NCBI GenBank assembly: GCA_014871385.1 | Contig: CM026426.1 | Span: forward strand, 85,332,947-85,396,946 | DNA from: Ceratodon purpureus | Lineage: Eukaryota; Streptophyta; Bryopsida; Pseudoditrichales; Ditrichaceae | Direction of reading: 5' to 3' | DNA: 64,000 bases | Part shown: piece by piece, positions 8,061 to 63,885 of the stretch | Layout of the letters: the number at the start of each line of letters is the position of its first letter | Numbering within the stretch: the stretch's first letter is position 1 | Program-made: the position numbers and the translations under genes | Notes under the pieces: generated by a model | Databases searched by the model: none | What the model saw: the letters and a program-made list of their open reading frames with translations, nothing else | Told to the model about the DNA's origin: nothing

Positions 8061-8066
8061 CTGTAT

Positions 8067-27688: not shown

Positions 27689-28530
27689 GTAAGTCATCAT
27701 CTTATACCTCTTTTATCAATTCGCGTGCGTTTGTTTTTTTTCCCGAGCAGTTCAATCAATTTCCGAAGTTCAGTATTGTTTTTCCAAACTTGGTTTGAAA
27801 TAGGATTTTTTGATGTCACTTCTTATCATATATAGATTTGTGTCGTCGAGGATGATTTTTGGTCTTTGAAATGAATATGCATAGAATTTCTATAGGAGTT
27901 AAGTTTGCGGAATTGAATTGAACCTTTCAATGTTCTCTAATTCACAGTAATTGTTAGGATAGTACGAGTTTGGTTTTTCTTTTTTTATTCGGATTCTAGG
28001 TCGAATAGGTAGCATTCCAAGAAATTCTGAATATGTGTTACGACTATTTCAATTGGTATCAGTGTTGTATGTAGGAATTGATTCTGAATCTGTGTTACGA
28101 TTGTTTCCGCGTAAGTGTCATTGGTGTGTGAAGTAATTGATAGGTTTTATGGATGAGGTGACTACACTCAGATTTAGTTGGTGTTCTGGTTGAAGTTATG
28201 TATAATCACATATGCATTGGGTACAATTTGGCGCCAATGCTCACGTTCAGATGTTACAGTGTATGCTTATTAGATCCAATTAGCTTATAATAGGAACTAT
28301 ACATATGGAATCCAAGTACACATGTACTATTCACCCAAATTTTTCGGTACAACTCTTCAACATTTCTAAAATAGATTGCATGTTCTGATCCTCAACAACC
28401 ATTACTTTTTGCAGGAAGAACACAGTTGACAAGACATTTGATCCAGAAATTGAGAAAATCCGTCTAGAAATGGCAGAGAGGTATCAAACCGAATGCCAAT
28501 TTTATATAAATCTCCGTACACAACGTCATC

Positions 28531-28995
28531 AGTTTAGCTCGAGTCGAGCTAAACTGCAGCATTCAATTGAAAACTGTACAAAAACTGAATAAAAATATCA
28601 ATTTCTACCCATTTAAATTGGATGAATTTTGTTATACCACCCCACAGTTTAGCTGGACTCGAGCTGAACTACAAAGCTCCTTACAGTTTAGCTCGACTCG
28701 AGCTAAACTGGAGGTGCAACTCCCCTTCAATCCCAGGGAGAGTAACCTACAGTTTAGCTCGACTCAAGCTAAACTGTGAGTGTTTCCTTTAGGACGCCTC
28801 AACAGTTTAGCTTGACTCGAGCTAAACTGCTATAGGCTCCTCGTGCAAGCTGTGCAATTTAGCTCGACTCGAGCTAAACTGCACGTCTCGCACCAGTGGC
28901 CCATAGCAGTTTAGCTCGAGTCAAGCTAAACTACTCGGACGTTGAGTTTCAGATTTCATGAATGAACCACCATTTACCTCGACTCGAACTAAATA
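28531..28995. repeat. Palindrome array, type A (first of island D)
   Basis: Eight 25-bp palindromes lie in one intron. Their arms are AGTTTAGCTCGA and its complement around a single central C or G, with centres near 28543, 28658, 28697, 28763, 28816, 28868, 28920 and 28983. Most are perfect or carry one or two changes; the last is more diverged. Centre spacing is 39-66 bp apart from one 115-bp gap. Each palindrome contains AGCT on both sides and TCGA elements at the centre. Confidence 0.95.
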
Positions 28996-30503
28996 GCTTC
29001 GAATTTGTCTAATTTGAAACGTTTGCTCCTTGCAGTGAGGAGAAAACTCGGATACTTGCAACGCTACAGCATTTCTTCAGGCCTGTTCCAAATTCAGATT
29101 CGGATGATGATGACGGGATGACTCAAGGACGTTTGAGGCGTGGACATTCAAAGACCCCTCGAAGGTGAAACTTTAGATTTTGCGATGGGTTGCACACACC
29201 CCATATCTGACCTTTGCTACCATTTACAAGGGTGAAGTCGAAGAATCCCAGGTCATCAACATGGAAACGAAGATCATTGAGTTTGACAATAAGGGGAAGG
29301 AGCTCATAAACATCTTGTGCTCATCTATGGGGAATAATCCATACCTCTTCACCAAAGTAGTGGACGTAGCAGAGAACCTCTTCGACCCGATTTCTTTAAT
29401 GGAAAGTCTATCGCCTTCTTGCTTCGATGAGATAGAGAAGACATTGAGGCAAGAGGTACTAGACAAGAAGTGGGCAGAAAAAGATGGACGTACTCTCCAG
29501 GCAAAGCCGCTAGCTTGGAAACTAAGAGATGTCGTCCGCAGCCTTACGCTTGCCGCAACAGAGGCAAAGGCTAGGCTAACCCAGGGCAAATCTCCAATGG
29601 ACGTGTCTAGAGTGACAGCAACCGGGAGCCAAATGGGAAGCCAACAGACCGGACGCAGTAGGGGCAGAGCATTGGTTACTTCGCAAAGCGGGGCCGCTTC
29701 TGCAACTCCCACACCCCTCTCACCAGCGAAGAGGAAAGGCCTTGAAAAGGAGACTGGCAAGCCAAAGCCCAAAAAGGACATGCTCTTATCTGTAGAGGAC
29801 CTAACAACTAATCTGACCTCAGTTCTCGTGGCACTTCCAAAGGAGAACAAGGTTGGAGAGGTCGTGGACTTCGATAGTGCCAATCAAATTTACCAGAGTT
29901 TCTTCGCTGATTGCCAGGAGGAGTTTGTCTTCAAAAAGGATGGGCAACCAAAGAAGATTAGTGTGGACGTGACGCGGTGCAAGCCCGCACCGGCCCATTG
30001 GACTATTCGTGCATATGAGAAGCGGGGCATGGAGGAGATGAAGAATTACTTGATCAACATGCCGGATAGGACATAGAAGCAAACCTTGTGTGTGATGCCA
30101 GACACGGAGCTCAGACCCCGAGAAGAAGGTGATCTAAGGGGCTGTATATTCTGGATCATCAACGGACAACACAGCGTTGCGGCGTCCAAATCACTCATCG
30201 AGGATAACGCCAGTGAGGAATTGGTGAGGGACTTCAGGAAGTGGGACACGTATATCGTTTGGACCCATGATTATGATAAGCTGCAAAAGATTTCAGCATT
30301 TTATAATCGAGTGAATCATCTGGCACCCTTTAAGCCAACTTGGGCGAGCAATATCATTGCCGCCAGGACAGTGTGGGTGAAGTATGGTAAGCCGCAACCA
30401 AAACATGCCGCCGCAGGTGCAACCGAGTCTAGGACTACAACGGCGAGAAGAAATCCAGCCTCGAAGACTTATGACGTAAGTTCTATGACTCATTAGCATG
30501 TGC

Positions 30504-30657
30504 AGTTTAGCTCAACTCGAGCTAAACTGCAATAGGTTTATCTCGACTCGAGCTAAACTGCTTGAAGTTTAGCTCAAGTCGAGCCAAATGTATATAATCT
30601 TGTTGTTTACAATGATCTGGTATATCTAATGCCCTTTAGCTCGAGTCGAGCTAAAGT
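30504..30657. repeat. Four type A palindromes in intron 30476-30684
   Basis: Centres are near 30516, 30547, 30578 and 30645. The first three are spaced exactly 31 bp apart. Individual arms carry one to three substitutions. Confidence 0.9.
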
Positions 30658-32090
30658 GTAATTTGCGTGAAAACATCATCTAAGGTATATCCTGTGTATA
30701 TGCAAAACTTTGTGGAAGCGATCAGGGAGCTCTTTGCAATGATCAATGTGGCCAAGCATCAAGCCCTGGTGTCGAAGAAGGGAGCGAGGAAAAATATCTC
30801 CTTTACAAACGAGCTGAAGATCATCGCATCCAGCGATAAAACCTAGGACTTGTGGAAGGAGGTGATCGCGTCTGCGGCATGTGGTGGACTCATAGACCTT
30901 GACATTGAACAAACTCACAAGAAATTTCATCAAAGTGCCAGGTTTGTTCCCGACAAGGATGGAACGCTTCCGAGGGAGTTCTTTAAATGGCTGGGGAACT
31001 TGTGAGAGGCGGATCACCAGAGGCTCTGTAAGCACATCCTGCATAAGTCTGGGCCAAGTCGGAAGTACACGTATCCGAAGGTTGTCATTAAGCAGAATAC
31101 GAATGTACTGGAGGACTACTACACGGTGAAGGAGTAGGTAGAGCGGAGAAAACGTAAGGCTGTAGCTCAGGCGGAACTGAACAAGATTTAGCCGACCCTA
31201 CAACTAATCAAGAGAGGCGTCCTTGATATTCAGGCGTGGAAGCAGTTCAAGAGGAATTACCATGTCTCCAAGGAGTCCAAGCACGTTTTGCTTGATTGGG
31301 GTATTCCGGACTCATTCTGGACTAGCTCCAGAGCTACACAGTATCGCAACACGTCCGCCAAAGATCTCTTTCTATATGCGGTTGAGTTCTTTAGAACCTT
31401 CCTTGAGCTGCGAGATGGGTTTCAGAGTCCATCAGCTCAGATGTGGTTTCTCCCATTCATTAGGGAGCCTCGACTTACCTTCGGATCTTGGCCCTCCAAT
31501 ATATGGAGGTTGTGGGGCAACGCCCTCTCCTTAGGAATCATCAACTTCCGATTCCTTCCAATCTACAAGACGAGGCAACACTTTGGAAAGCCCCTTCATC
31601 TCGCAGTTCTTCAATATATGGTTGAAGACTTTGGACAGCCCCACTTCAACGATGTTCGGCACTAGCTTCTGATTTGCGGGGACGATGAGGACTTTGCCCA
31701 CGTACTAACGTGGGTAGAGCGTAGCACCTTGAGTGGTCGCAAAAAAGTCAATTCTCAGTATTCCCCCGCCCCTAAGGAGCGACTCGGTGGACACCCCCCA
31801 AAGAGCAGAATCGCGATGGAACCTGCTCGACTCCTGTTTCTCATCGATACAGAATTACGTGAGAACGAAGTGTCGCCGCCAGAACCGAAGAGCGAGTACA
31901 GCACGCCGGGTCACCCACTGTACAAGGACAACAGGAAGTTCAAAGAAAGGAAGTACTCGACCTATCCATCGGAGTTGAGGATGGAGTTCTATATCTAGGT
32001 CCACGACACTTTCTGCAATCACGGAGAGGCGGTGTATCAGCTCTATGCTGGAACAAAGCCCCTACTGGCTGCCATGGTAAGTGTTTCCAC

Positions 32091-32186
32091 ACTTTAGCTC
32101 GAGTCGAGTTAAACCGTTCCTCAATTTTGATGCGTTGGACTGTGTATGTATACACTTCTACACTTTAGCTCGAGTTGACCTAAACC
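32091..32186. repeat. Two palindromes in intron 32077-32213, one hybrid
   Basis: The first (centre 32103) is type A. The second (centre 32174) has a type A left arm (CTTTAGCTCGA) and a right arm TTGACCTAAAC that matches the type B palindromes found after 35.6 kb. Confidence 0.8.
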
Positions 32187-33183
32187 TTGTTTGCCTTGCT
32201 ATCGGTTTCTCAGATGCTCTCAATCTCGGCTTTCGTCGTCGCGGATGATAGTGACTGAGGTAATATGAGCGATGCTCAGTCCCTTGGTTTGACTCTGGAC
32301 CCAATCGATTTTCATGTCGACGCATATTATGTCGATAAGGAACGTTTTCCGGAACTTGGTAAAGCCGTGCAAAACGGGAAAGGCAGAGCTCAGGAGCATG
32401 TTGACGATGTAGAAGTGGAGGAGGATGCCCCTACCAAAGAACAAACCCCCTCCTCGTGTACTGCAAACATCAGCTCTGAGGGCGATGATCCACCTTCATA
32501 TCCGCTGAGTTAGACAGCATCTCAAGCCGGAGTGGGAAGAAGACTCGATTTTCCTGAGGTGGACATTACGCGTACAGATGAAGGGAGACCGGGTTCATCA
32601 CTGGAGCTGGGATCAAGAAGTGGGAGAAAGTCTGGTGGTGGGCGAGGTACTGGGAAACAGGCACTCAAGAGAAGGAGGGTCGACCCACCAGCACGGCAAG
32701 CCTCTCCATTGGGGAGAGCCACTCCCGTTTCGGATATTCAAGTTCTTCTTGCAGAACTGTAGGCGTCCAAGGAAAGAGAGAAGTCCTTAATAGATAAGAT
32801 TGAGAAGCAGAACTTGGATATGAACAAGACCGTGCACGCGGCACTAGAGGGTGCTCTGAAAGGCATCGGGCATGGGGCATGTCGTTGTTTTCTCGAATGC
32901 GGGTTCAGTTCTACACAATGTCCAGCCAATAGATAGTGCCCTGCCTACTTTGCGAGTAATAGAGATTTTGGGCTCCCCAAGCGGTGGTGCGAATTTGCTA
33001 GAGTCGGATCTGAGTCTTGCATTAGTGCCGGAGCCAAGCCATCATTGCACCGACCAGGTCATGCGTGACCCTAGTCCGAGCCCACCCCTTCTCCCTTCAC
33101 AATCAAACTCAGGGAGATGCTCCGGAGACATCTTCAGATCCCTCCCAAACTTAGATTTTTTGAACTCGGAATTCTGTAGATGA

Positions 33184-34127
33184 GGTGTTAACACTAGAGT
33201 AGTTCACCGAAATGTGCATTTTTGTACCAAAGCGACTATAATTAATACAAATGGGCTATTTAACTCAACTCGAGCTAAACTATTCAACTTTTTTACAAAT
33301 CCTTTCTATGTCAGCTTCCTTGATGATTCTCTGATGATTCTATAGTTTACTTGCAATGCCCAGGTCAAAAATTACATGAGGAAGTGGACAATCTTCCGGT
33401 CATGGATGATGTTGTCATGGCCCAAATTGCGGATGTGCCTGTATGCACAAATATGGATTTAGATGTCACGGACAAATATGCTCTTACCTTATCACCGTGC
33501 GTAGAGCTCGGGGAGGGCACTACATGTGTACATTAGGTACCACATGCGTTCACGGGGTATTTTATAGGGTGGTATTTAGCTTAAAAAAAAGACTAAGTGA
33601 AATGCATTTTTGAGACCTTATCTTACTTGTAAAATGGCTAAATGGCTTATATTCTACCATTATTTTTTTCTAAACCCTAAACTTCCAATTAATTCATGTA
33701 ATCTTACATTTAAAAAAATTATAAATTTTACCTCAAAAGAATTAAAACCCCCATATCTTTGAACTCAGCTAGTTTCTAAGTTGATGCACAGTGCCCCCCC
33801 CCCCCCCCCCCCGAGGCGTAGAGGTCATTCCTGACAATCAACCCTAGGATTCGTTAAGGTCGATGGGTCCTGTGGACGATCGAGATGTCGTAGAAGAACA
33901 AGCCGAGGATGTACACGTATTTCATCCATCATTATATCTGGTTGCACTGTTTTCTTGGGTACTGACTTGCCCTGCGACTGTCCTCTTTGTATCATTCGTA
34001 TAACTCCGTCCTAGTATAATATAGTAATGTCCATTTGTCATCGGTATTTCCTCTCTAGGTGCGCGAAGCATCTGGATGTGACGTAAGTTCTAGTGAAGAA
34101 TTAAGTCCTGTTTCGACGCGACCTCAG
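33184..34127. other. Gene-poor interval with one palindrome, a short exon candidate and a C19 tract
   Basis: A degenerate type A palindrome is centred at 33269. An open stretch 33351-33536 (KLHEEVDNLPVMDDVVMAQ) follows a TTGCAATGCCCAG acceptor and could be an exon. Nineteen consecutive C lie at 33794-33812. The rest is AT-rich. Confidence 0.5.
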
Positions 34128-35930
34128 AGTGGTTTGTTGAACGTTGTCCTCGACCTCAATGGAATACTCTGCTCCAGTACTCCTAAGTGGCCTGGACAAT
34201 CATTTGTTAGCCATGACCTTAACATCCACTGAGCGTCCAAGCCAGCGGTCGTCGGCTCCAAGTTTGTTTGTGTCAGGCTCGATTGTGCTGAATTCCTTCG
34301 TCGGTTGTCAACGTTCGCAACCATAACTGTCTGGAGTTCGATGAAGACTTTAACGACAAAAATGATCTGCGACTATCTGTTCGGTCCGATTCTTCCTGTC
34401 TATCTGCTCAGAATTCTAGGTCAAGAGGACTATCAGAGAGTTCCTATGGGCGTAGATTTGCGAGGTCGTCCGGTATATATGAAGGAACCCGGGACTCAAA
34501 AGGACATCTTCCTTAAGCCGATGTGTCATGGTCTCTTTCGTAAATTTGATGGCCTATATTATGATGCCAACACCATTTTTATTGATGACAGTCCAATCAA
34601 GCACTGTCAGAATACTTCTCACAATGTCCTTTTAGTCTCGACTTGGAACAACCAAAACCCTAATGCCGCAGATGATTGTTTTTTGTTGTCGAAACTTTTG
34701 CCATATCTTGTAGACCTCCACAACTTCGTAGGGACACTCGTAAGATTCAGCGCCGAGCATCCGATCGAAAAAAAAATGTATTATGATGACCGTCTACCTG
34801 TGAACAATACGCTAAGATTAACGAGGCAATTAGCCGTAGAGCTTAATTAGGCACGTCTTTGGTTCTCTAGTTTGGTAATGGATATATCTGAACTGGCGCG
34901 AAGTTATCAGTATACTGTACATCTTAACTAACTGGATAATCATTGTATCAAGACTACTCCTTTTGTAATACAAAGTATATTTTTCTTTTTTAATCTATTA
35001 TGTCCCTTGCGTCGAACCCTAAACCCTTAACCATTGCTGAATTATTGGGATGTATGTTTCGATTTGCTTTATGTATTGCAGGATAATGCATGTCGAGCCT
35101 CAGTGGATTCTTTAAATAATGCTTATGGCTGCGGGCCTTCTCTGCGTAGCAGAGATCTTTTGTTGCAATCAGTTGCAACAGGGCAGTTCACGATGGACTA
35201 TTCAACTATGGCTGTCGATGAAGGAGTTGTGGACAGCTTGGTTAACCTGTCCATTCCCAAGACCCTGAAATCCCCTTCTCTTATGTGGCCACGGACCGTA
35301 TTGCCAAATGACAGAGTTCTACCCCTGCAAAGCGTGCTCTTTATTACAATGTGGAGGACATGCCGTCACCTCCACCGGCAAAGGTTATTTTTGATCCCTT
35401 GACTATTAGCTTTAAATTCCTTTCTAATGTTTCGTTCATGTAAGTGAGTTAAGTGATGGTAATTGCTCGCATCTGTTCTTGCCTTCTATATGTCCTTAGT
35501 TTAGCTCGAGGCCACCTAAAATGATTGATCTTTTTCTACTTTCATATAGGTTTGTGCTAACTTATGTAGGCTTCTTCGTTCAGGGTCCGTTCGATTTAAA
35601 CAGTTGCACTCAGCAGTTTAGGTCGAATCGACCTAAACCGAAATCTCTTCCTAATGCTAATTTATCCCCCTTGTACTTGCCTTGGAGATGCCGAGGCTAC
35701 AATCAACAACTACAGGATCCATGGCAAAGAAGTCCGGCGACTCCCATCCTAAACCATCCAGTTCCCGTCGCCACTCTTCGCCTGAGTCAAGCATTGGTGA
35801 CAGACGTAGACAAAAGTTGCAACGTCTTCTTGATATTCCAATGATGCAGGTCGAGGGAATGTTGTGGACACGTCAGCGTCAACGGGAATTTGTCAAGTCA
35901 AGAATTCAGGCTTACGGGGGGACTCCATAA
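34128..35930 (+). pseudogene. FCP1/NIF-type HAD phosphatase-like protein
   Basis: After a CCTCAG acceptor one frame runs 34128-34850 with a single internal TGA (34230-34232). It shows the plan of an FCP1/SCP (NIF) phosphatase domain: VVLDLNGILC at the HAD motif I position, RLDCAEFLRRLSTFATITVW (motif II region, W-S-S for W-T-S), a mid-domain PVYMKEPGTQKDIFLKP, and IFIDDSPIKHC followed by VSTWNNQ and LLPYLVDL. Motif I is normally DxDxT; here it reads D-L-N-G-I, so the second Asp is Asn and catalysis is doubtful. A further exon (35082-35383, DNACRASVDSLNNAYGCGP) follows an ATTGCAG acceptor and shows a frame change near 35325. A last exon (about 35690-35930) is Ser/Arg-rich. It may be a separate gene or the 3' part of the ParB-like gene upstream. 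Confidence 0.6.
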
Positions 35931-36425
35931 CCATATAGTGGATAGTATGTACTGTATAGCAATGGCACAGACAATGAAGAGACGATTATAAGAATCGTCT
36001 ATGTTATTTCAAAGTAATTATGTTTCGAATAAAACGATTGATTTGTTTGTCAAATTTTCTCGTCTACCATTTATGCCTCATTGTCATGCACTCTTTTCGT
36101 GTTCTTCAAAATTCCAACTGTATTTTATGTGATTGGACATTGCGTTTTTCCTAAAGCTAGGTTTAGAATGGTAACGAATAGTTACTGCTATAAATACAAA
36201 AACGTGGTTTACTCTTCTTTCTTGTTTTTTATTGCGTTTAGGTGTGGTCGACCTAAATGACATAATCATCATCCTTCTTAAACATGTTCTTAACGAATCA
36301 TTGAACATTATTAAGTTCTCTCCTGTATGTTTGTGCATTTAGGTCCACTCGACCTAAATGACATAGGCCTCATTCTTCTTTTAACGTGTTTTTAATGATT
36401 CAATATTGATTTACGCGAGGTCGAA
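35496..36425. repeat. Type B and hybrid palindromes at the 3' end of island D
   Basis: A half-and-half site at about 35499-35520 joins AGTTTAGCTCGAG to a CACCTAAAA right side. True type B palindromes (TTTAGGTCGA-N-TCGACCTAAA) are centred at 35627, with degenerate ones at 36247 and 36348 and near 36417. They differ from type A only in the inner bases (GGTC for GCTC). The intervening DNA after 35930 is non-coding. Confidence 0.85.
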
Positions 36426-36429
36426 GTAA

Positions 36430-37349
36430 ATGGGAAGGCATGAATGTGGCCATTTCTCTACACGCTGATTTCCCAAATTCAAGAATATCTCCCAAAATAA
36501 CGAATATGGTGTTATTCATGAAAAAATCACGCACATATCTCATTAATTTCATGTGATTAGGAAGCTTGACGACTCATAGGAAGTCAAAAGTTATCATATG
36601 CAACGTGCATTGCTACTTCTCTGCAAACTATAATTAGGTCTATGCAGCAGGCATTACATAAAAAGTGATGTAACACTTCCCAGTAGGTGAATATAGTAAA
36701 ATTCCAACCAAAAACTCTAAAAATTGTAGCACTGAATACGCACACATTGTTTATGAGTTTTTACTCGACATCGTAGCTTAGGATTCAATGACCTCCAAAA
36801 CATAAACCCATATTACAGGTATGTCAGTATGCAAACGTCTTTTAAAAGTCTAAGAGTTTAAGCAACCAATTGATGTTCTAGGAAATGGTAGTAGATACAC
36901 TTATGGAGGAATGATACAAGCTTCACTATGCAAAATTGAATTGCATTCCAGAACCTAATCAAACAAACAGGCTAATACAACGTTCTGTATGGAAGCAATT
37001 ACTACAGGAATAGGGGAAAACGATCTAAGGTCACTCACACAAAGGTTAAGTGCAGTATTTGTTGGCGTGTGCATAATTGCAACTAAGAGCATGGAGTAAT
37101 GCAAAAGTTTCCAATATAACAACCAGTTCACTGTGGCTTACACATGATGGAACGACGTTTGCTCTCATTTCCACATGGACTATAGTGATGCATACATACC
37201 TACCAAGCAGGAATCGTGCGGAAATACAAAATTCCTTTAATTATCTTCTCATAGGCCCCAATCCTTGATTGAACACATGTGAGTCGGTTGCGCAATTACT
37301 CCACAATATAACGTGTACTTAAAGCACGCACTACAAGAATTAGGCAAGA
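36430..37349. other. Non-coding interval
   Basis: This is AT-rich sequence without a credible frame, palindrome or RNA. It lies between the palindromes of island D and the next gene. Confidence 0.5.
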
Positions 37350-39548: not shown

Positions 39549-39602
39549 AATTAGCACTACTTCAATGCGGAGACATAGAAACCAACTTCGGACCAATGCC
39601 CA
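39549..39602 (+). other. 2A-like motif of LINE copy 2
   Basis: The frame reads KLALLQCGDIETNFGPMP. The G-D-I-E-x-N core is intact and only the Pro of NPGP is changed to Phe. Confidence 0.75.
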
Positions 39603-48993: not shown

Positions 48994-49837
48994 TGCCATA
49001 TTTAAGTAAATCGGGACTTTCAATAGTCCAGATTGGTCAAAGTCCAACTGAAATATGATGTGTAGGGTGAATTGTAGGATCATATGATCCAGCAAAGACT
49101 TAATCGTTTTATGAAATTGAGAGAGACGATAAAGGTTAGAAATGCAAAATACAGCAAAGATTGCTGGGAATTATGTGCGAAACTTATCAAGCATGTGGAT
49201 ATGTAAGATTGGCAACTTGTAAAACACCGTAAGATCCTACTATCCATGGTAAGTAGTTATATATAGACACTTCACGTTACAACATTACATAATCAATAAA
49301 GAAGATTCCAAGAATATTCATACGAAAGTTATCAAACATGTGGGTATTGTAATATTGGCAAGTAGTAAGGAGGACCGTAAGATCCTACAATGTTTGGCAA
49401 CCATAGATGTAAAAACACATCACATTATTTGGATTCTGTGAACTGTAAAGAAAAAATCTTATTTGAGTACAACTAGAGTGTTCCGCCCTTTACATGTTAC
49501 TTTGTATTGTGTACACATTCTGAGATGCCACTACTCCTGAAGCCTCAATAACAACTAGTAACCATGTATTCTAAAACTATCTGATTGTGAGAAGCAGCTC
49601 TATCGAAAACAAGCTGGACAATGTCAACACACACTAATTACTCTGTAGACATTGCACATGGAGAAAAGCTTCATATGGTCACTAACGGCCATGCATTGTG
49701 CGGACCTTTGCACTGGACTTGGCTCGGACAGCACTACACCCAGTATCGACGGATGGATGCACGGATCCAAACAACGAATACGACGACTATGGGCGGGCGT
49801 TTCCTTTGCACCACTGATCTTGGCCAGAGCACCGACT
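48994..49837. other. Left edge of island E with degenerate palindromes
   Basis: Three decayed relatives of the island E palindrome are visible: TTGTAGGATCATATGATCC (about 49067), CGTAAGATCCTAC (about 49226) and CGTAAGATCCTACAATG (about 49375). The rest is AT-rich and without a supported frame. Text from 49624 to 49837 may be a 3' continuation of the exon listed next, in a shifted frame. Confidence 0.6.
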
Positions 49838-50230
49838 TCAAGCACCCTCCCAGATGTTGTATGCTTCGTCAATGATGCGGAGCCACCCTGCAGTTGACAT
49901 AGTGTGCGTTGACACTTCCCTTGTGTGGCTGACGTGAATGCTGCCAACACTCTCGGACTCCTCGGACTCCACCGACTCCTCGGACTCCTCGGACGTCAGT
50001 GGAAAGGCGATGCCGGAAGCATTAGAGATCTCGAGCAACTCTATGGTGTGAGAAATACTCCAATACCACTCCGCACCTGGCTGTAGAAGGCGTGTGATGT
50101 ATTTGAAAGCAGGAATAGCTGTGTTGCGAGAACGGGCGACCACCGCCCTAAACCATGGCCGGAGCTCCTCGACGTCAGCCGGTGTCTCCTGATACTGCGG
50201 ATACCACATATTGCTACCCCACCTCCCCAT
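49838..50230 (-). CDS. Probable 3' exon of the DUF7869-type gene or a neighbour
   Basis: A clean 130-codon minus-strand frame: QYQETPADVEELRPWFRAVV, YWSISHTIELLEISNASGI, a Glu/Ser repeat (EESEESVESEESES), then STAGWLRIIDEAYNIWEG and TGA. It has globular text and is flanked by palindromes (50595, 50687). I do not recognise the family. Its splice relation to the upstream gene is unresolved. Confidence 0.4.
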   Translation of the reverse strand: MGRWGSNMWYPQYQETPADVEELRPWFRAVVARSRNTAIPAFKYITRLLQPGAEWYWSISHTIELLEISNASGIAFPLTSEESEESVESEESESVGSIHVSHTREVSTHTMSTAGWLRIIDEAYNIWEGA

Positions 50231-50585
50231 AACGACAAAATATTCGACAATATGTGACTAACTTCTACAGTATGCGACCTTCTTCTACAGTATCCGGCTG
50301 GAGTTTGTCTACTAAACTGGTAAAAGTTCTAGTAATCCACTTTTCTAGAGTATCTCAACATCTACTAGCCAACGTTCACCTAGCCTAGTAGCGCCTAATC
50401 TCCTACTTGGCGATAAGAAAACATTATTAGGACTAGGACTAGCTTAACTTGCTGACAACTGAAGGAAAGAAGCACATCTAAAACTGAATAAACTCACAGC
50501 AACCAGGCAGAGGCAAAAGCAGCATAAAAGAGTGCAGTTTGATTAAAAATAGTAAAACCCGAACACAAGTAGCGAATGTTCAACA

Positions 50586-50697
50586 GGATGTAGGATCCTA
50601 CGATCAGTTTGCGGGTACTACTAGGCAAAACGAAGCACTTCTAAAACTAAATAATCTCAAAGCAACCAGGTAGAGGAGATCGTAGGATCCCACGATC
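50586..50697. repeat. Two island E palindromes
   Basis: Copies of the GGATCC-centred palindrome have centres at 50595.5 and 50687.5. The second carries one substitution (CCCACGATC). They lie between the end of the DUF7869-type frame and the downstream exon, consistent with an intron. Confidence 0.9.
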
Positions 50698-50743
50698 TAG
50701 CGACTAAGCTTTGGGTGGATATGGGGGATAAATTATGCGACGG

Positions 50744-53700: not shown

Positions 53701-54352
53701 TAATAGTCAACTGAATCGCTAAGCCTATGCCCACCCTCAAATACACATTCCGCTATCGGTCACCTACGATGGCTCATAATCTCCCCTGGATCCCCGAGGA
53801 AGACGTCCAACATTGTAACTCCAATGTATCCCACTCCCAAGGTGTGGTCCTCGAAAGGATCCTCTGGACGGACGCAGTTGATTCGTCCAAAGGCCAGGAT
53901 ATCACCATTGTCGTTTAACCGCTTCACGACCTTCGCAACCCACTCAGCCTGAGGGACATATGGCAGAGAACTTGTGAAGTCCGAGCTTTCTCCATCGCGC
54001 GTATTTCGGATCACATTTCTTGTCTCCCAAAGTACCGTTCTACCAAGCGCATTGGCCAAGACGGAGATGTCCGTCTATGAAGGTTGCATAGGCAGGTAGA
54101 GCGCCATTGGAGTTATCTCAATGGGACGAAGGATGGTCATCTCGGGGTGGTGTTCTCAATATCGACCCCAAGCCAAGACCTAATCGGGTTCACTTCAATG
54201 ACAACGGCATGACCAACAATGCCATGGCCAGGATAGCAGATGAATACATTCAACCCTGGTATGAATGGATCTTGCTGCTCTTCCGTGTCAGAGTCGTAGT
54301 TATTACAGGTGGGATCCATGAAGTCATCGTCTTCTCCAACACTTGTTGACAT
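50744..54352 (-). pseudogene. DUF7869-type transposon protein
   Basis: On the minus strand, exon 1 runs from Met 54352 (MSTSVGEDDDFMDPT, acidic) to a CCCAG|GTACT donor at 53076. After a frame change near 54135 it holds a Cys cluster (C-stop-RCCSSEC), FDGRWDYARSVGGQFRY and GTVRAIINETTDLMPNQ. Exon 2 starts at 52686 after TAGCAG and encodes FAKCTECDTLLQDIDQS, ILCIIHDKMDTAK, LYLQLDNSAKDNKNQFLMGF and GFLLVGHTHEDIDAYFSHLS. These are signatures of the family databases call DUF7869, common in large eukaryotic transposons. The D-N and H-E-D-x-D clusters suggest an RNase H-like nuclease fold, an inference. The C-terminus (IYPVWLGRACSAF, KYENCWDATW) resembles a small chromatin-reader-like barrel. Disruptions: TAG 54075, TGA 53760, TAG 53544, a frameshift near 52040, TAG 51125. 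Confidence 0.65.
52783..53002. repeat. Three palindromes in the DUF7869-type intron
   Basis: Centres are at 52793.5, 52859.5 and 52991.5, that is, spacings of 66 and 132 bp. All fall between donor 53076 and acceptor 52687. Confidence 0.9.
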
Positions 54353-54441
54353 ATTTGATCACCTGCAAGTATGAAAGAAGTCAATTCTGTTAGAATAAAT
54401 GATGCAGTAAATGGAATTGTTTGAGCGAAGAAGTGGCGATG

Positions 54442-54815
54442 GGATCGTAGGATCCTACGATCTTCCACAGACAGAAAAAACGTTGGATATCACGGTTATC
54501 ACCGTGGACCCTCTTTAAGACAACAGAGAAAGGTAAGGTTGACACCCTCAAGTTTTGTTGGCGGATGCCCTCAATGGATTGTAGGATCCTACGACCTCTT
54601 TCCAGGTACCATGGAAGACACTATAGTGCAGAGATCGTGGGATCCTACAATTTGGTAAAGCCCTTGGTCGATGGCAAAACCACCAATGGTATTGTAGGAT
54701 CCTACGATCTTCTCATGTTGATAACGAAAGCCAAAAACATTCATTGGATCGTAGGATCCTACGATTCCATCGGTGGCCTCTCAAAAATTAGAATGATCGT
54801 AGGATCCTACAATCC
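54442..54815. repeat. Palindrome array upstream of the DUF7869-type gene
   Basis: There are six copies of GATCGTAGGATCCTACGATC with 0-3 changes. Centres are at 54452.5, 54586.5, 54642.5, 54699.5, 54756.5 and 54804.5. Three successive spacings are 56, 57 and 57 bp. Spacers are unique but share traces with spacers elsewhere, for example ATTAGAATGAT before the copies at 54804 and 59483. Confidence 0.95.
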
Positions 54816-54905
54816 TACAAGTGATCCGAAATCATTTTGATGAATATTAGTCCGTACAATGAGTAATTAGTAGACTCTAGAATTTCATGTGATACTACAT
54901 TAACT

Positions 54906-55737
54906 GGCATGTTTGTTTAACGGCAGCTGATAGCGTCAACCGCAAGAACCACAAAAAAATATGCATTAGAAATTGCTATTGAAATGATTCTGAAACACTT
55001 GACATGCGATACAGTATGTTATCTAGAGTCGCAAATACAACAATGTCTGTCCTAGGCAAGACGCAAGGGGTTTGAGCGTGCTAATTTTTGCTGGAAGTCA
55101 TTACTTGTGCAAGAACCTATGTTTGTAAGAAAAATAGGCAATAACCTGGACTGCAAGCAAAAAAGTCTGTCCCAGCAAGATTTGTCAAAGTCGCAATTCT
55201 TACAGCTTATCAATGTAATTAAGCAAAGAATATAGTGGAGAGGGAAACTATGTGTAATACCTGTGAATGACGTCAATTTGGGTCCGTATTTTCCGGTGTG
55301 GACGCCGCGGAGTCGATGATGCAACATGGCGGAAGCTGAACGTGTTAAGTTTTAACTGCAGGAACCGCTTCTAAATTATATTAGAAAATGCCATTGGAAT
55401 GACTGTGATGCACTTAACATTTCAACGCATGTTATCTACATTCGCAAAATTAATACAAGAATGCCTATCCAGACGCCGGGAACATTGAAGCGCATCAATA
55501 ATTGCTGGAACACATTAATTGTGCAAGAACCTATCCATGTCTATAGGAAATCAGTCAGGAATCGAGGGAGCAAGTAAGACTACTCTTCTGTCCATGTAAG
55601 ATTTGTCATTTAGCAGTTCTTACAAATTATCAAGTTGATCAAGCAAGCAATTTAAGGGAGAGGAAAGTAACCGGACCTGTGTTGGAGATTGTCCTTGGTC
55701 CGTGTTGCCCGCTATTGACGCCGCGGAATCAATGATC
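54906..55737. repeat. Diverged tandem duplication, 416 bp per unit
   Basis: GACGCCGCGGA-G/A-TC occurs at 55301 and 55717. Upstream of each lie matching blocks in the same order: TGCAAGAACCTATG/C, CAAGATTTGTCA or TAAGATTTGTCA, AGAGGGAAA or AGAGGAAAG, and GGTCCGT. The pair sits between the two divergent genes of island E, where promoters would be expected. Confidence 0.75.
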
Positions 55738-57093
55738 TCCTTTGCTGGAGCTTAAGAACAGTGTGTAGTTGCTGAATGTCCAGAGAACATGACGCCGATA
55801 GATGAAAACAAATAACGATATGTCTAAAATGGAGGCGACCTAAGTTTAATGCAAGTCTTGGCAACTTAGTGCCTTTACTGAAGAGCAAAGCTACGCCCTG
55901 AGTATGAATGTGCACTAATTCTAATAAACTGGCAGAAGAAACGAAGTCTAGGAAACGAAGTCGAATCAAAGAGGAGAAACACCACAGATAATACTTCTTC
56001 ATGCATATGAGGTCGGGATCAAGATCAAGAACTGGTATGCATACTGGGCTTGAGTAGGGACGAAATCATTCTCAAGGTGCTGAGGAAATGAACAACTCTC
56101 TCTGATTGAACAAGTAAGCTTTTGAAGGAGCGTAGTAGCAATAGATTAGTTGGAATTGTTACTAAGCCATGAGACCATTCAATGAACACGATGAACACAG
56201 GGTAATTCAGTACCAATTAAGAAGTTGCAGCAAATTGTCCGTCTTGTAAAGTATCATGATAATTAGGTGTGCTCGGAAGGGTATCTAATTGAGTAGACAC
56301 AGGACCTTCACTGAAACAATGACTGGCATCCATGAACCCTGAACCCTGGAAACCCTAAACCCTGAAACCTTAAACCCTTAAGTACATGGTATATTTTAAA
56401 TTTGAAATTTAAGAAAAAATAAAATATCAAAATGAAGAGTCCTCTCTAACAATAGAAATAAAATGGTTAGCAATTAAATATTCGTCAAAAATTAAAAGTT
56501 CCAATCATTGTACATAAAAATCCCTTCTTATCTAAATAATAAATAGGATCATGCCTCCATGGCCACAATTTTGTATCATATTTCTCCGCTCTTGTTCCCT
56601 ACCCTTTTTTATTCATTTTTTGAATCTTTGTAGTATATTCCTTTCTGATTTTTAGTTACTAGCCATATATTTATTTTATCTAAATAATTATGTCTTGTAC
56701 TTTTTTGAAGTTGTAGTATATTAAGTGTGCATATACAAAAACAAAGTAAACTACATTGTATAAATAAAAGTTTCAAACATTGAACACAAATCTCCTTTAG
56801 TATGCATTTACAAAACAGTAAACCACATAATTTGTATAACTAATAGTTCCAAACATTCAACACAAATTCCTCGTCGCATGCTTGTGCACCCATGTCTACG
56901 ACCAAATTGTTTAGAGATGAGTTTTTGATGTTTTGTGATTTTTGAATCGTTAATTTATTAATATCTTTCTAATATATATGAAGTCTTGTTTTTATTTACC
57001 AACCATATGTTTACTTTATGTAAATGATTATGTCCACAACTTTCTCGAAGTTGTAGTATATTTATTGTGCACAATGTAAGGAAAAAAAATTAA

Positions 57094-57135
<42 letters not shown>

Positions 57136-58180
57136 GCATTGTCTTATTAATTAAATATATTAAAATATTAGTTACTGATATTTATTTATTTGATTCATAA
57201 TTCTCCTTCCAGAAGATGCGATGTTTTTTTTCAAATTATGCGTCTTTAAGGAGATGCAGTGTTATTTATTTATTTTTCTTGATTTCTGTATTTTTATGTC
57301 TAATGCTTCTTTTTGAAGATGCGTTGAAGAAGATTTATTCATCTTGATTTTATTCTTCATACGTTATGTTTCATCCTGAAGATGCTCCATTATTTATTTA
57401 ACCCTCTTAATAAATATATAAGTGATTGTTCCATTTTTCAATGCGCTATTATGATATGGCTGGTCATTTTCCTCAAGTTTCTCTAATGCTATAATTTCAC
57501 AAATTCACAAATAAAAGAGAGATATATAGTTTTTTCATCTTTTATTTTTTTGGGGTTTTTTTTTTTTTAAAACCCTTCTTCTTCCCCGTTTTCCTTCATC
57601 TTTCTTTTATTCTTTTATTAAAAACCTACCCATGATACTAAAAATAGGCAGTAATACCGTTGTTAGATTCTCAGTTTTCGATAGAATCATGCACCCTTTA
57701 GTAAAATGCATAATTTTACTGAAAATAGTAAACCACATTGTATAATTAATAATTTCAAACATTCAACACAAATCCCTTTTTCATGCATTTAATAAAAATG
57801 CATTGAACGGACCCATGTATGCGAGCAAATTGTTTAGAAACGTACCAAGTTCAATGTTTTGAGATTTTTTCATCGTTTATTAATTAAATTATCTTTCTAT
57901 ATAAAAGGTATTTTTTTTGAATTTATTAGCTATAAATTAATATCTTCCTTAATTTCTTAATTATGTATATTCATATTAACCTTTGTAGATATTTAGGTCC
58001 TTCAATTTTTGGAAGCTGGCTTTTGTAGTATTTACCTTCATTAATTTTTGGAATCTTAATATCAAAACTACTAGACATCTCTCAAGCTACTATACAACTC
58101 TCATACTACTAGACAGCTCTCAAACTACTAGACAGCTCTCAATGAATAGCCGCCTAAGTAAGAATTCTAATTATTTCAGA
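55738..58180. other. AT-rich spacer between the divergent island E genes
   Basis: No supported gene. It contains a telomere-like degenerate segment (about 56328-56382: CCCTGAA, CCCTAAA, CCTTAAA variants), an A run (57099-57133) and three copies of a unit of about 70 bp at about 56742, 56815 and 57723 (CAAACATT-C/G-AACACAAAT core). There are also GAAGATGC motifs (57200-57390) and a 19-bp tandem (ACTACTAGACAGCTCTCAA) at 58086-58145. Confidence 0.6.
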
Positions 58181-58199
58181 GCTTCTGACATTTCAAACG

Positions 58200-58941
58200 T
58201 GTTCATCTTCCCAAACCTGGTTTCTTGATTTCTCGCGACTCCTCGGAGACTTGCGCTCAGGTTTCCTTCGTGTTCTGTATGAAGTCACTGTTTCAACCCT
58301 AACGTTTGTGTTTTGCTGCTGAATTTTCGCGATCGTCCCGTGCGTTGTCGCTTTTCATTTCCCGCTTCTTAAACCTTTACTTTCGCCGTCTCCTGCGCCT
58401 TCGTTGTCGAGATTTCTGCCCTTTCTACATTGGCACGCAGGTAAGCGATGCTCTTCCGATGAATTTGTTCCTTATCCGCTCAATGTTTTGAGGTCTCAAG
58501 ATCGTTCTTGTCATTGTCTTAGTCTTTAATTCAGTGAATTCCTTTCAATGTATATTTCTGCATCCAGCTTACATTTTGTTCCTCAACATGCTTGTACAGA
58601 GTTACTTGGTCTTTGAATCCGCTGTGGTGCGAGTATGACGGGTGTGGTTTAACGTCAGTGGATGGTGTTGCGTTGCTACATAGGTGCATCTCTTGGGAAG
58701 AGTGCGACGCTTAGACTTCAGGTAAACTACTTGATACGACACTATCTCGCAAAAGTTGCCCTTTTGTTCAATTTCATCCTTTCTGCGTAGCTTAGCGTCC
58801 GCTGAAGGTTTCTTTATGGTAGAGAATGCCGTGCAAATGGACCGACGTGACACCTTTTTTGTGCAGCACTATTGCAAAATTGACTTCGGGTTATCACAGT
58901 GGATCGATTAAAAATCATGCTTTCTACTCTCATGTTTACAG
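58200..58941 (+). other. Probable leader exon(s) of the second ParB-like gene
   Basis: GC content rises at about 58200, and the stretch to 58440 ends with GGCACGCAG|GTAAGC, a strong donor. The situation parallels the leader exon at 27061-27688 of the first ParB-like gene. No coding frame is claimed. Confidence 0.4.
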
Positions 58942-59241
58942 AATTGGAAATTGAGCAACGTCAGAATGTCTTCGCCAGTAAAAGCAACGCATAAGGCTCT
59001 TGAAACGTAATTTTTCACTGAATTTTCCAACTCTATGCATTAAAGGTTCGTGATCTTTGTTAGAATCCAATAAACCAGTGATACGATTCATTCAGAATTG
59101 GACACATTTTATTTTTATTGATGTCAAATGTTTCAACAATCGCTCAATTTTGGAATTCCTTATATGTACGGCAGTAATGATTACATCATACAGAGAAAAA
59201 CGATCCTTATTAGATGCCCCAAAAAGTATTCAAGCAGAGAG

Positions 59242-59549
59242 AGATCTAGGATCCTACGATCTCTTCTCCAGCTCCCCCTTCAATTTGGAATCCTTTGAGA
59301 GATCGTAGGATCCTACGATCCTTGGAATGAGCAAGGTTAAACGCAAGTGATGTTGGAGATCGTAGGATCCTACGATCTCTCAACGATTACGGACAAATGA
59401 CTGTGGCTCATCGAAAGATCGTAGGATCCTACGATCTCTAAGGGAAGTGGTTTTCCGAGTGGCGCATTAGAATGATTGTAGGATCCTACAATCTAAGACA
59501 AACATGTTGTAATTTCAAACGATACTTAGGATTGTAGGATCCTACGATC
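59242..59549. repeat. Six-copy palindrome array in an early intron
   Basis: GGATCC centres are at 59251.5, 59310.5, 59367.5, 59426.5, 59483.5 and 59539.5: spacings 59, 57, 59, 57 and 56 bp. The 20-bp palindrome is perfect in three copies. Spacers of 35-39 bp differ from each other. The array occupies the intron between donor 59006 and the main ParB-like exon. Confidence 0.97.
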
Positions 59550-61020
59550 TCAAATGAGGATGGAACAAGATCTAATAAATTGGTTTTGTTTGGACATGTC
59601 GACTTACAAGAAGTCGACATGATTAACAGTGACTGGCAACCAATGGCTTTGGCAGATGTTGTTTCTGTAGCGTTGCTCCAATCTCCCATGTCTATCAACG
59701 TCGACCCTGAACCAACCGCGTGGTTTGTCCCTGATAAAATTATCGTGTAAAGCCTTTATTGGCATGTCAAACCTGAGACGGAGCGAGTTCTGATTGCGCC
59801 AGTGACGGCAATCACGGATGACAGCGCACCTAGGAGACCCTCTTTTAAGCTACCCACAAAATACTTGGAGGTACTGGAAAATTTGGCCAAACTCGACGAT
59901 AGTAAAATTGTATTAGTAATTTTGGAGTATGTTGCGAGCGTAAACCTTAGTCGCACATACGCCCTGGTTGTTGCGAAGGACGCTCTGATACCGAAGCTTA
60001 CTGAATTTGTGAAAGACCATGGCTTTGTGTTCTTGAAGATTCATTTACTAGTCCAGAGAATTCTGCAATGCTAGATAGAGCTGAAGGCATATCATGATAA
60101 ATACAATATGGAGCGTAAGAAGAAAGTTCCGCCCTCGTCCATGAAAAAGAAGAGGGGTTCTTCTCTTAGAGTAGTAGATGAGCCTCCAGGGAAGAAACCA
60201 TCTGAGCGCAAGAAGTCTGACCCCAAGGTAGAAGAGATGACCCTTGTGAAGGTGGTCAACATGACAAGCAAGACAGTGGCGGGGAAATCAGCAAAGGAGC
60301 TAGAGCAAGTGACGGCTCTTTACGAGAAGGAGTTCACCAAACTTCACATCTTTGGGAAGCGGCCCATCAAAAAAGCTGAACAAAGTCAGGACGACTTGCT
60401 AGTCGACATTGACAAGCTCCACCGAGCTCCAGCGGGTAGCATTGTGTATCGCAATTTGGAGCATAAACGAGTGAATCAGCTGATGGACCAAACACAGGCA
60501 ATGCTGTTTTAGCCTTCACTCCAGCACCTCTATGTGATTCCAGTCAAGGGCGAACCGCCAATTTGCAAGGAGGACTTCAAATTCGTGCCTACCAAGACTT
60601 ACAAGTATTTTGATTGCAAACCAACCTGGAATAATATTAATGAGAGAACGCACTTCATCATTATTGGCGGGCAACACTCTGTTGCCGCACACAGAGCCTT
60701 CATCGCTGAGGGTGGACTAAGTGAGGAGGATAGAAGAGATGCACGAAGTTTTATCGTCACTGTGGTATGGGCCAAAAAAGAGGAGTGGAATCTACTCATT
60801 TATTATTCCCGGGTCCTGAATCAAGACCTTGCCGGTGTGCAATCAGGGGGGAACTACCTTACTCTTCTGGGAATTGCCCGCAGAAGTTGGAGAGAGGCTG
60901 GATCGCCACCACCATCATTAACGGTTTTTGCGCACTCACACACATTCAAGGTATTCCAACATTGCATTACAGTTTTGTTAATGATTCCGAGATGTTAAAT
61001 GTATCCTTCACGTTCGTCCG

Positions 61021-61041
61021 GATCGTAGGATCCTACGAATT
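61021..61041. repeat. Single palindrome in intron 60951-61089
   Basis: GGATCGTAGGATCCTACGA, centre about 61031, lies in the short intron between the ParB-like exon and the basic exon. Confidence 0.9.
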
Positions 61042-61749
61042 CCTAGTTCAATGCCGCTTTATTCCATGCAAGATATTGACATCTTAAAGGTTACGGAGCT
61101 GGTGTTACAAAAGAAGGTGTATGTGAAGTCCACAAAGTCCACCAAGAAACAACCCATTCTTCCGGGCCTCAATGAGGCGTGTCATTTGGAGAAGAAGCGC
61201 GGGCTCATCAAGAACAAATTCATGCACTACTTCGAGAAAAAGGAACTACGGTGTAAGACAATGCGAGCAGACTCGTACACCGATGCAGAGTATGATACCG
61301 CTGCGCTGAAGTACAAAGTAACCGAGGCAACCATAGACACTTACTACGAGAAGCTAAGCAAGGATCCTAATGGAGAGCGTTTTTTTAGGCTGCGGTCTGC
61401 GGCATTGAATCCATCCAACAAAGAATCAGATTTTTCGACTCTTGTCGGGATGTTATTTGAGCACCAGAGAAAGGACAAAGGCGACTGGATTCAGGACGTG
61501 CCAGCAACGTCAGGACCGTCTGTGGCATCGATGTACAATATCCGGAAGAAAAGATACGTGAATTTGACGTATCTCCAAGTTAACTAGAGTATGGACAGTG
61601 AACTTCAAGTGAGCACTACACTTTCACTTTGTGAGCAATTGCCTTCGGGTTTTCACCTATTTTTAGAACTAGAAGTAAGGTTGTGAAAAGTAAATGATTT
61701 TTGTCTAATTATAGAAAAAATCTATGTAAAGAAATTGTTCTCCATTACC

Positions 61750-63045
61750 CTATCTAAAGGGTGTCCACGCCTTTTTCATGCATTAACTATTATTAGGCCT
61801 CATTATGATATAATAATGTTTTGGGCCAGTGTTTAAAAAAAAGATATGTATGTGATATTGAATTGTGATTGCATTGTAAGTTGTAGGGTTAACTTTTGAG
61901 ATGATTGTGGGTGTTAGCGTGACTTTGTTTAGAGTGTGGTATATTATTCTTATTGAAATAAGTTTGTTTGGTGTTGTGGATAGGTTGAGTGGCATAATCT
62001 TTTGAGAAAGATGAAGACTAGAGCATTGACAAATGCTGAGAAAGGACAAGTGGTTGGAATGCACAAAGCTGGAAGCAAAGGTGTGGAGATAGCAAGAGAA
62101 TTAGGTATGCCCTCATCCGTTGTTTATGGTGTTATAAAGAGTTTCAAAAAACGAGGAACTGTGAAGTCACCAAAGCCAACAAGTAGGCCTTGAAAGTTTA
62201 CGGAGCGGAATATGAGACAGTTAGAACGTTTTCTTAATCAAGGTCGTCGTAAACCACTCATAGAAATTACAAATGAGATGGCATGTGTTGCAAAGGTTAG
62301 TACTCGTACTGTAAAGAAGGCTTTGCATACCCTTGGTTATAGAAGCTGTGTTGCACTAAAAAACCTTTTCTCAGTAAAAAGCACATGGTAGACATGTTTG
62401 CATTCGCTAAAGAGTATAAAAACTGGACCAAGAAGGATTGGAAGAAGGTTATTTGGACTGATGAATTATCTTTTGAAATAGGAAGGACTTATAGACAAAT
62501 TAGAGTGTGGCGAAAGGCTTATGAAAGATATTTAGATAAATGTCTAGGACCATTTTTCAAGTCCAAGCGTACGTTGGTGATGGTTTGGGGTGCTTTTGGT
62601 GGCTTTGAAAAGGCTCCTTTAGTAATTATACCTCCGTATAAGCAAAGTGCAGGTGATTTTGTGGATCTTATTTACGATGGCGCTTTAACTCCATTTTATT
62701 TTATCCATCAACCTCACAAAGAAATGTTACTTATGGAGGATGGCGCTTTAGTCCATTGCAGCAATTTGCCAAACAAGTAGAGAGAAAAAATGGGTATAAA
62801 GAAGTTGAAGTGGCCTGGCAACTCTCCAGATCTCAATCCAATTGAGAACCTATGGAAGATTATTAAAGATGAAGTTCAGAGTACATCCCGGCCACGCAAA
62901 TGCACAAGAATTCGTGGAACCACTTCATAGAGTATGGGAAGAGATACCTCTTGACCTCTAAGAAACCCTTATTGATACCATGCCTACACGTATGAAGAAA
63001 GTAATTAGTGCAATAGGTGGTAGTACTAGATTTTGAGTACTATAT
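61750..63045 (+). mobile_element. Tc1/mariner element, degenerate
   Basis: A transposase reading frame begins at Met 62011: MKTRALTNAEKGQVVGMHKA, a helix-turn-helix (GVEIARELGMPSSVVYGVIK) and a basic linker. After TGA at 62191 and a frame change near 62380, the catalytic part shows VIWTDELSFEIG (first D), LLMEDGALVH (second D) and [20 protein letters not shown] (third acidic residue). A TAG at 62778 and lost bases follow. The DD(~34)E-type layout and [11 protein letters not shown] motif are typical of Tc1-like elements. No convincing terminal inverted repeats were found, so the borders are approximate. It lies within an intron of the ParB-like gene (donor 61674). Confidence 0.8.
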
Positions 63046-63676
63046 AAGAGAAAGAAAATTTTGTATTGATTTTGTTTTTTTTTGCAATGTAAACAAGTAC
63101 TATTATTGAAATAGAATCTAAAGGCTTTCAAATGCAATTTTTTGCATTGAATTCCATGAATTTTAAACCTCGCATGAGCTCACCAAACTAGCTGTATAGT
63201 ACATTTTTCTAGCACAAAACAGAGAATCACATATCTTTTCTTCCGGGTATTGTTCAAGTGCCTCAAAATGAGCCGGAAAAATGGGGATCTTGCTACAGAT
63301 TGTTTCCTGGATGAAGGCGGATGCACGGGTGACCATAGTCTTCTGCTTCTTGAACCGACTCGACAAAGGGAAGCCCGACTTCTCGAACATGGATTAGGTA
63401 TTGCATACTCTTCCGGCGATGGAGTTCCACGATCATGCGCAGTTCTGGAGGGCAGTGTATTTGGGGGTCTTCATCACAGATCGGGCAGGAATGGTTGAGG
63501 TTGCCAATGCTATAGAGGAGAGAGGCTCCCGGGTCGAACAAGTCTGGCCGTGGCTCCATACCCCCACTCTGTATATTACACAAGGAAAGGAAGGATTCGT
63601 CACTCCGACGACCCATGAACCTCCACTGCCCTTGTACTTTTATTTATTATAGATACATCATTGCCTATCTAGTTGG

Positions 63677-63885
63677 GATCGTAGGATCCCACGACGATAA
63701 CTACTTTCAGTGATCAAAGCAAATTACAAATTGAAGTTAGCGTTTGAATTATTGTAGGATCCTACGATCTCTAAATGTGTTCCGGCCTTCAATCTTCATG
63801 CTTTGGGAGATCGTAGGATCCTACGATCTCCAAGTTCAGTGGCGCTTCACATTGAGCAGTATGAGGATCGTAGGATCCTACGATC
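63677..63885. repeat. Four-copy palindrome array at the right end
   Basis: Centres are at 63686.5, 63759.5, 63818.5 and 63875.5 (spacings 73, 59 and 57 bp). Spacer text partly matches spacers of the 59.2-59.5 kb array (CCTTCAAT...CTTTG-G/A-GAGATCG). The remaining sequence to 64000 is AT-rich; island E probably continues beyond the window. Confidence 0.95.

Follow-up and report, generated by a model that had tools for sequence, protein, structure and literature searches.

Private palindrome arrays in the non-coding parts of three families of large mobile elements in the moss Ceratodon purpureus

The analysed stretch, here called the window, comprises 64,000 nucleotides of Ceratodon purpureus DNA (assembly GCA_014871385.1, contig CM026426.1, positions 85,332,947 to 85,396,946) and lies on a contig of 110.5 Mb. 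The genome searched for related copies amounted to 362 Mb in 151 contigs. Two islands of the window, D and E, each carry a short palindrome of their own, repeated in introns and flanks (Table 1). Island E has one gene with a DUF7869 domain on the minus strand, which scores 1.3e-43 in Pfam in a copy on contig C5. The plus strand of the same copy encodes an open reading frame (ORF) of 468 aa, designated the ParB-position ORF, followed by ORF2 of 515 aa and additional ORFs; two regions there resemble NIF/FCP1 phosphatases (3.4e-13 and 2.9e-9). The introns inspected by eye in this copy had GT-AG ends. From its sequence, the DUF7869 protein is probably the transposase of E; acidic positions in its alignment are putative DDE/DDD residues, read by eye only. 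For a viral origin of the gene, also considered, one scan of viral contigs gave no match. A second set of elements, F2, opened in one copy on contig C8, carries a DUF7869 gene 62% identical to that of E, a ParB-position ORF and an ORF2; no long ORF was seen to the right in this copy, where no profile search for phosphatases was made. The ParB-position ORF of D, taken from a copy on contig C2, is 27% identical to that of E over 171 residues. The C2 copy also has a second long exon, at the place of ORF2, and a NIF-like region. Its DUF7869 gene is represented, as far as seen, by a fragment similar to the last exon, and the strand of this fragment relative to the ParB-position gene was opposite to the expectation from E. 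Judged by these similarities, D and F2 are related to E in part of their genes.

That the islands are large mobile elements, as the first-pass annotation of the window had proposed, held for both D and E. Element E is a DNA transposon, because it has terminal inverted repeats (TIRs), target site duplications (TSDs) and near-identical copies. Its TIRs are 27 bp long at both ends, with 26 of 27 positions identical in the C5 copy. The window copy spans 48993-68246 in window numbering, so that its right end lies 4,246 bp past the window end, and measures about 19.3 kb with a Tc1/mariner-type insertion counted; the element overall is about 19 kb, and the C5 copy 18,687 bp. The window copy ends as the C5 copy does, and a copy on contig C3 confirms the right end as well. 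Duplications were found in both copies with both ends known (TATG/TATG around the C5 copy, read by eye), at a length of only 4 bp, where chance is possible for any single copy. In blastn the C5 copy was 99.75% identical to a copy on contig C7 over a 14.9-kb piece, the C7 copy being truncated at right, and 99.3% identical to the C3 copy over 6.6 kb. The window copy is diverged (82-94% identity, varying by segment). A genome search with the E-type protein P0001, in which 97 of 532 candidates were scored, gave at least 101 matches, and all counts from this search are lower bounds. Among the scored candidates, at least 60 matches at no fewer than 44 separate places were E-like copies or pieces, and at least 41 matches, at 30-32% identity, made up the F2 set.

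The element nature of D follows from its many copies; its ends were not found. Copies 76-77% identical to that of the window have mostly open frames of 492 aa and occur on contigs C1-C8 and C10-C12, and the spread of open frames over so many contigs suggests recent activity of this subfamily. On the 110-Mb contig, many of the older copies from the E-type and D searches contain one or a few stops, frequently TAG, a pattern that would be consistent with CAG to TAG decay at methylated CHG sites. An alternative genetic code, suggested by the many in-frame TAG codons, was rejected: many copies have open frames without one, and these read open under the standard code, so the in-frame stops look like decay.

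The palindrome of D, AGTTTAGCTCGASTCGAGCTAAACT, was present in 17 copies at 28525-35640 (19 sites by a loose consensus scan, reaching 36360). The palindrome of E, centred on GGATCC and with the exact word GATCGTAGGATCCTACGATC, was present in 21 copies at 50581-63886 (25 sites by the loose scan). These numbers are close to the first-pass counts of about 18 and about 23, and the accompanying claim that neither island holds the type of the other was borne out at up to four mismatches, E sites being absent left of 48900 and D sites outside 28400-36500. At the cutoff of the loose scan, eight mismatches, three shuffled windows still yielded 2-3 matches to the D and 0-5 to the E consensus, which puts the most degenerate sites close to the chance level. 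The window contained 35 near-palindromes (arm 10, at least nine matching), compared with 2-5 in five shuffles. Sequence information drops to near zero a few bases beyond the 20-25 bp unit, with weak leftovers. The sites had also been placed in introns and flanks rather than in coding sequence, and the comparison of intron and exon density agreed: none of 43 sites was coding, although coding sequence makes up 61% and 70% of the islands. These 43 are all 19 D sites and 24 of the 25 E sites, an E site with eight mismatches at 49068 being left out. They form 13 clusters, and the chance of their non-coding placement is about 1e-6 if the clusters are independent.

The same pattern was found outside the window. 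The C5 copy of E contained 38 E sites at up to three mismatches, 23 of them perfect, and the C2 copy of D contained 22 sites at up to four mismatches, 12 of them perfect; none was coding in either copy. The C8 copy of F2 contained 26 sites of the CATCGGGGGATCYCCCGATG type, most of them slightly asymmetric. In the three copies together, 85 of the 86 sites lay outside the inferred coding intervals. Foreign-family sites were absent from all three at up to three mismatches, and at four there was one F2-like match in E. This match is an E site variant, GATCGTGGGATCCCACGATC, at L038:5980 (element position 2337 of the C5 copy). The variant remains a perfect palindrome, intermediate between the E and F2 words, and could be a step in motif change. 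Sites of the E type were found in all 30 fetched E-family loci, the window's own copy included, at 4-12 per roughly 4.3 kb, and sites of the F2 or D type at up to four mismatches in none of the 30. Each of the three families thus carries its own private palindrome of 20-25 bp, and the family-private motif postulated at first pass stands for E, F2 and D. The positions of the arrays also correspond among the three, on either side of the ParB-position exon and behind the exon that comes next. For D the association was followed genome-wide with the first 50 of 181 matches to an imperfect pattern and 97 of 618 gene candidates scored; 13 of 37 D-like sites had a scored D ParB-position gene within 10 kb, as against 1% of random places and none of the 13 other pattern matches. 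A scattering of the palindromes independent of these genes, named at first pass as the refuting outcome, is contradicted within the loci covered.

Table 1. Features of islands D and E in window coordinates
Feature	Position	Strand	Basis or remark
Element D, part alignable to C2 copy	28174..36513	+	scattered matches from 26395; ends not found
D array, 8 copies	28525..28996		first intron (28482-29035, inferred)
ParB-position exon of D	29177..30477	+	one TAG
D palindromes, 4 copies	30498..30658		intron after ParB-position exon
Next coding exon of D, at the place of ORF2	30690..32077	+	
D palindromes, 2 copies	32085..32187		next intron, after the exon at the place of ORF2
D palindrome	33251..33282		outside coding stretches
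NIF/FCP1-like phosphatase region of D	34100..34850	+	PF03031 2.9e-8 for 34233-34850
D-type palindromes, 4 diverged	35492..36360		3' side; three are TTTAGGT..ACCTAAA variants; loose scan
TSD ATTT, 4 bp	48989..48992		again at 68247-68250 after right TIR; read by eye from flanks
Element E, left 15 kb of TIR DNA transposon	48993..64000	n/a	blastn against copies on C5, C7 and C3; ends and TIR
Left TIR of E, ATGCCACATTTAAGTAAATCYGGACTT type	48993..49019	+	end comparison among copies
E palindromes, 2 degenerate	49223..49394		near left TIR; loose scan
E palindromes, 2 copies	50581..50699		between DUF7869 exon and small last exon
DUF7869 gene of E	50745..54350	-	Pfam PF25273 1.5e-33; frames broken in window copy
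DUF7869 exons of E	~54350-53040, 52690-50745; small C-terminal exon 50230-49640	-	
E palindromes, 3 copies	52779..53003		intron of DUF7869 gene
E array, 6 copies	54438..54815		5' intron/leader of DUF7869 gene
E array, 6 copies, spacing 56-59 bp	59237..59550		directly 5' of ParB-position exon; first intron in C5 copy
ParB-position exon of E	59600..60950	+	GGQHSVAA motif; 468-aa ORF in open copies; here two TAG and one TAA
E palindrome, 1 copy	61016..61041		intron after ParB-position exon; 4 copies there in C5 copy
ORF2 exon of E, part 1	61050..61536	+	match to P0002
Tc1/mariner-type element in ORF2 exon of E	61537..63252 (approximate)	+	TIR pair near CAATATCCGGAAGAAAAGATACGTGA; without palindromes
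ORF2 exon of E, part 2	63253..63645	+	continuation across Tc1 insertion
E array, 4 copies	63672..63886		after ORF2 exon

The arrays themselves carry traces of their history. In a seven-site E array of the C5 copy the spacers were 0.52 identical, compared with 0.53 after shuffling, while six of the seven palindromes were perfect and the spacing was kept at 56-60 bp; since the spacers are at chance similarity and the palindromes are not, the E sites look to be under selection. In the 92-bp E array the spacers were 0.95 identical, which argues that arrays grow by tandem duplication and that this one is young. In the D palindrome the central base varies freely, as expected of a site bound by a dimer.

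We consider it about an even bet (probability near 0.5) that the palindromes are binding sites for a dimeric protein, encoded by the element, which controls or un-silences its own family in the manner of the VANC proteins discussed below. On this reading each island belongs to a family of giant DNA transposons, E with its 19 kb among them, and every family maintains arrays of its private palindrome within gene introns and leaders. The reader would be a protein of two-fold symmetry from the same element, most likely the long and fast-evolving ParB-position or ORF2 protein. Occupying many sites in the first and later introns, it would keep the chromatin of its own family open or the genes on, and would leave other families untouched. 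The identity of the binder, its dimeric state, and anti-silencing or activation rather than transposition as the outcome are what we infer. Between E and F2 the variable protein accompanies the variable motif: identity is 62% for the DUF7869 exon and 46% for its N-terminal exon, 28% for the ParB-position protein and 27% for ORF2, and the half-sites have seven of ten bases in common (chance 0.0035) and differ in three.

Several observations weigh against reading the palindromes as sites of an element-encoded regulator. Profile searches gave no recognised DNA-binding domain in the ParB-position or ORF2 protein, and a host factor could read the palindromes. By inspection, the E and D palindromes have no visible half-site in common, and no similarity was detectable between ORF2 of E and the D exon in the corresponding place. 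Two D arrays keep a slight spacer similarity (0.63 and 0.55, with shuffled values of 0.53 and 0.50), so that the contrast with spacer decay is weaker in D. In the C8 copy of F2 one of the 26 sites lies inside a coding ORF, and the exact symmetric consensus occurs in only one of them. The counts of placement depend on coding intervals that were inferred from ORFs and homology. Finally, the first-pass expectation that each motif occurs together with its own genes stood for all 30 E loci and for the 13 D-like sites near a scored gene, and did not extend to the 24 of 37 D-like sites more than 10 kb from any scored D gene. Two loci among the latter, L003 and L051, with three of the 24 sites between them, were inspected and both proved to be D-family DNA.

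A more far-reaching variant would make the palindromes a private code of self-recognition. A dimeric protein, possibly with a hidden ParB- or methyltransferase-like fold, would load at dozens of intron palindromes and mark the 19-kb element as self by spreading or modification, and new families would arise by coordinated change of protein and half-site. We hold this to be unlikely. The first-pass annotation had called the proteins ParB-like, and this label did not survive: the ParB-position protein had no match in sequence searches of Pfam, NCBIfam, PHROGs or PDB, and hhalign against 22 P1-type ParBs, the one ParB subfamily compared, gave a probability of 0.1. Its only ParB-like trait is the local motif GQHxVAA, and with every profile test run negative, ParB homology is unsupported. 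The stretches ILVNIGGGPSITWIGL of E and VVDTFCSTGVAVYQLYAGTK of D, in the C-terminal part of the protein at the place of ORF2, resemble methyltransferase motif I by eye and have no profile support; neither ORF2 of E and F2 nor the D exon of the window gave a methyltransferase profile match, and no DPPY was seen there.

The palindromes might instead be recognition sites of the DUF7869 transposase, serving synapsis or excision as in transposons whose subterminal motifs are repeated. Degenerate E-type sites do lie near both TIRs of the C5 copy (positions 78-381 and 18454), and the N-terminal DUF7869 exon, as given above, is less conserved than the domain exon. However, all 23 perfect sites of that copy are internal (2061-16280), those near the ends are among the worst matches, and among the proteins compared between E and F2 DUF7869 shows the highest conservation, yet the motif differs. 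We regard this explanation as doubtful.

Still less likely, in our judgement, is that the arrays are bound by a regulator or chromatin factor of the host (as enhancer, insulator or nucleation site of silencing) which the elements exploit or through which they are targeted. Arrays in the first intron, near the presumed transcription start, are typical of enhancers, and many departures from a perfect palindrome in the window copies are CpG transitions (12 of 28 across 21 E sites and 7 of 19 across 16 D sites), as would be expected in methylated and silenced copies. One motif would be expected from such a factor, but the three families each have their own. It is improbable, too, that the palindromes are neutral, a functionless short unit spread by tandem duplication or by self-insertion into introns. 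Tandem duplication does expand arrays, as with the 92-bp array, and independent insertion would also yield unrelated spacers. Against neutrality, the seven-site array of the C5 copy combines randomised spacers with nearly all perfect palindromes at a regular spacing, this spacing being no obvious product of insertion, and sites recur at matching places in three families with different sequences. A role as RNA hairpins in splicing or export of long element transcripts, in keeping with the intron location and with one site directly after a splice donor, is very improbable, since some sites are found in intergenic flanks, a palindrome without a loop suits a DNA-binding dimer well but folds poorly as an RNA hairpin, the free centre base of the D motif fits a DNA dimer site, and the palindrome sequence is identical family-wide.

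The remaining features of the window can be described briefly. The Tc1/mariner label of the insertion in ORF2 was given by eye, the Pfam match to the Tc3 helix-turn-helix being only 0.058, and the bases bordering the insertion are TA at one end and TT at the other. It is a later insertion, because P0002 and the C5 copy have an ORF2 that continues across the junction; its gene was rejected as a part of the E system on these same grounds and for having TIRs of its own. Stretches resembling long interspersed nuclear elements were seen by eye from ORFs at 14.4-21 kb, 39.5-43.7 kb and 44.7-48.9 kb, those at 16.7-21 kb and 44.7-48.9 kb having almost the same translations in opposite orientation. The first-pass annotation had ascribed own motifs to islands A, B and C as well, which was partly borne out. 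At 1-28400 no palindrome family was found among the matches listed, and a scan for near-palindromes gave five single hits there; an own motif was seen in the island at 8-13 kb, where the non-palindromic 11-mer TCTGTCCTAAA occurs in both orientations between 8066 and 12861. At up to one mismatch all nine of its sites in the window fall there (shuffled mean 0.05), and at two mismatches 11 inside the island and 14 elsewhere, for a word chosen after its cluster had been noticed. The cluster surrounds minus-strand ORFs at 8707-11435 without a Pfam match, and by analogy the 11-mer looks even more like a VANC motif than the palindromes do.

Among known systems, ParB/parS resembles the present one in having sites, palindromic or repeated, close to the gene for the candidate reader and in the local GQHxVAA stretch. 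It differs in that here there is no profile similarity, no ParA was noticed, and the elements are chromosomal transposons in an intron-bearing genome. Lanisha comes from a moss. It is a recently named cut-and-paste lineage, EnSpm-like (Repbase Reports 2020, via PMC12730594), with C(2)C and H(3-4)H located between its second D and its last E and, in its clade, ends that are mostly CA..TG (PMC12730594). Element E starts with ATGCCAC and has a 4-bp TSD, and in this comparison by description the features of Lanisha fit it poorly. Sola2 elements have short TIRs and 4-bp AT-rich TSDs, ATTT included (PMC3627910). The short TIRs and the TSD length of E are alike, and ATTT fits while TATG is not purely AT; palindrome arrays and phosphatases go unmentioned in the parts of the Sola2 description with which E was compared (PMC3627910).

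VANDALs are Mutator-like, and Pfam scans of the long ORFs here gave no Mutator-type domain, only DUF7869 and NIF. They nevertheless offer the closest comparison for the arrangement of sites. In VANDAL21, motif arrays derived from tandem repeats occupy introns of VANC21 and VANB21 as well as the region upstream of VANA21 (PMC5735166). The VANC motifs are 8-9 bp long, that of VANC21 in one orientation: YAGTATTAY, AGTTGTCC/AGTTGTAC (PMC5735166; PMC10398659). Both systems comprise multi-gene DNA transposons with family-specific arrays in introns and upstream regions, a tandem-repeat origin of the arrays, and a variable protein together with a variable motif (PMC5735166, PMC10398659, as far as these accounts describe them). 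Family-private arrays in non-coding parts of the element were found here in three copies and 30 E loci, and genome-wide in part. The present elements differ in their palindromic sites of 20-25 bp, their probable DUF7869 transposase, 4-bp TSDs and NIF-like phosphatases. No description of such palindrome-bearing elements was found among the listed titles and opening lines of abstracts of PMC papers, a scope with subscription papers and preprints mostly outside it; what appears new to us is the palindromic site of this length, the DUF7869-type element, the phosphatase regions and the divergence of the motif over three families, whereas the principle resembles VANC. If a protein of the element reads the palindromes, this would be a second case of sequence-specific self-recognition by transposons beside VANC, apparently built from other genes. 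It could also offer an explanation for the persistence of numerous active elements of this kind that leave host genes undisturbed. The long palindromic sites would make the code between protein and DNA easy to read and to use, and with three families of differing sites the co-evolution of protein and motif becomes directly testable.

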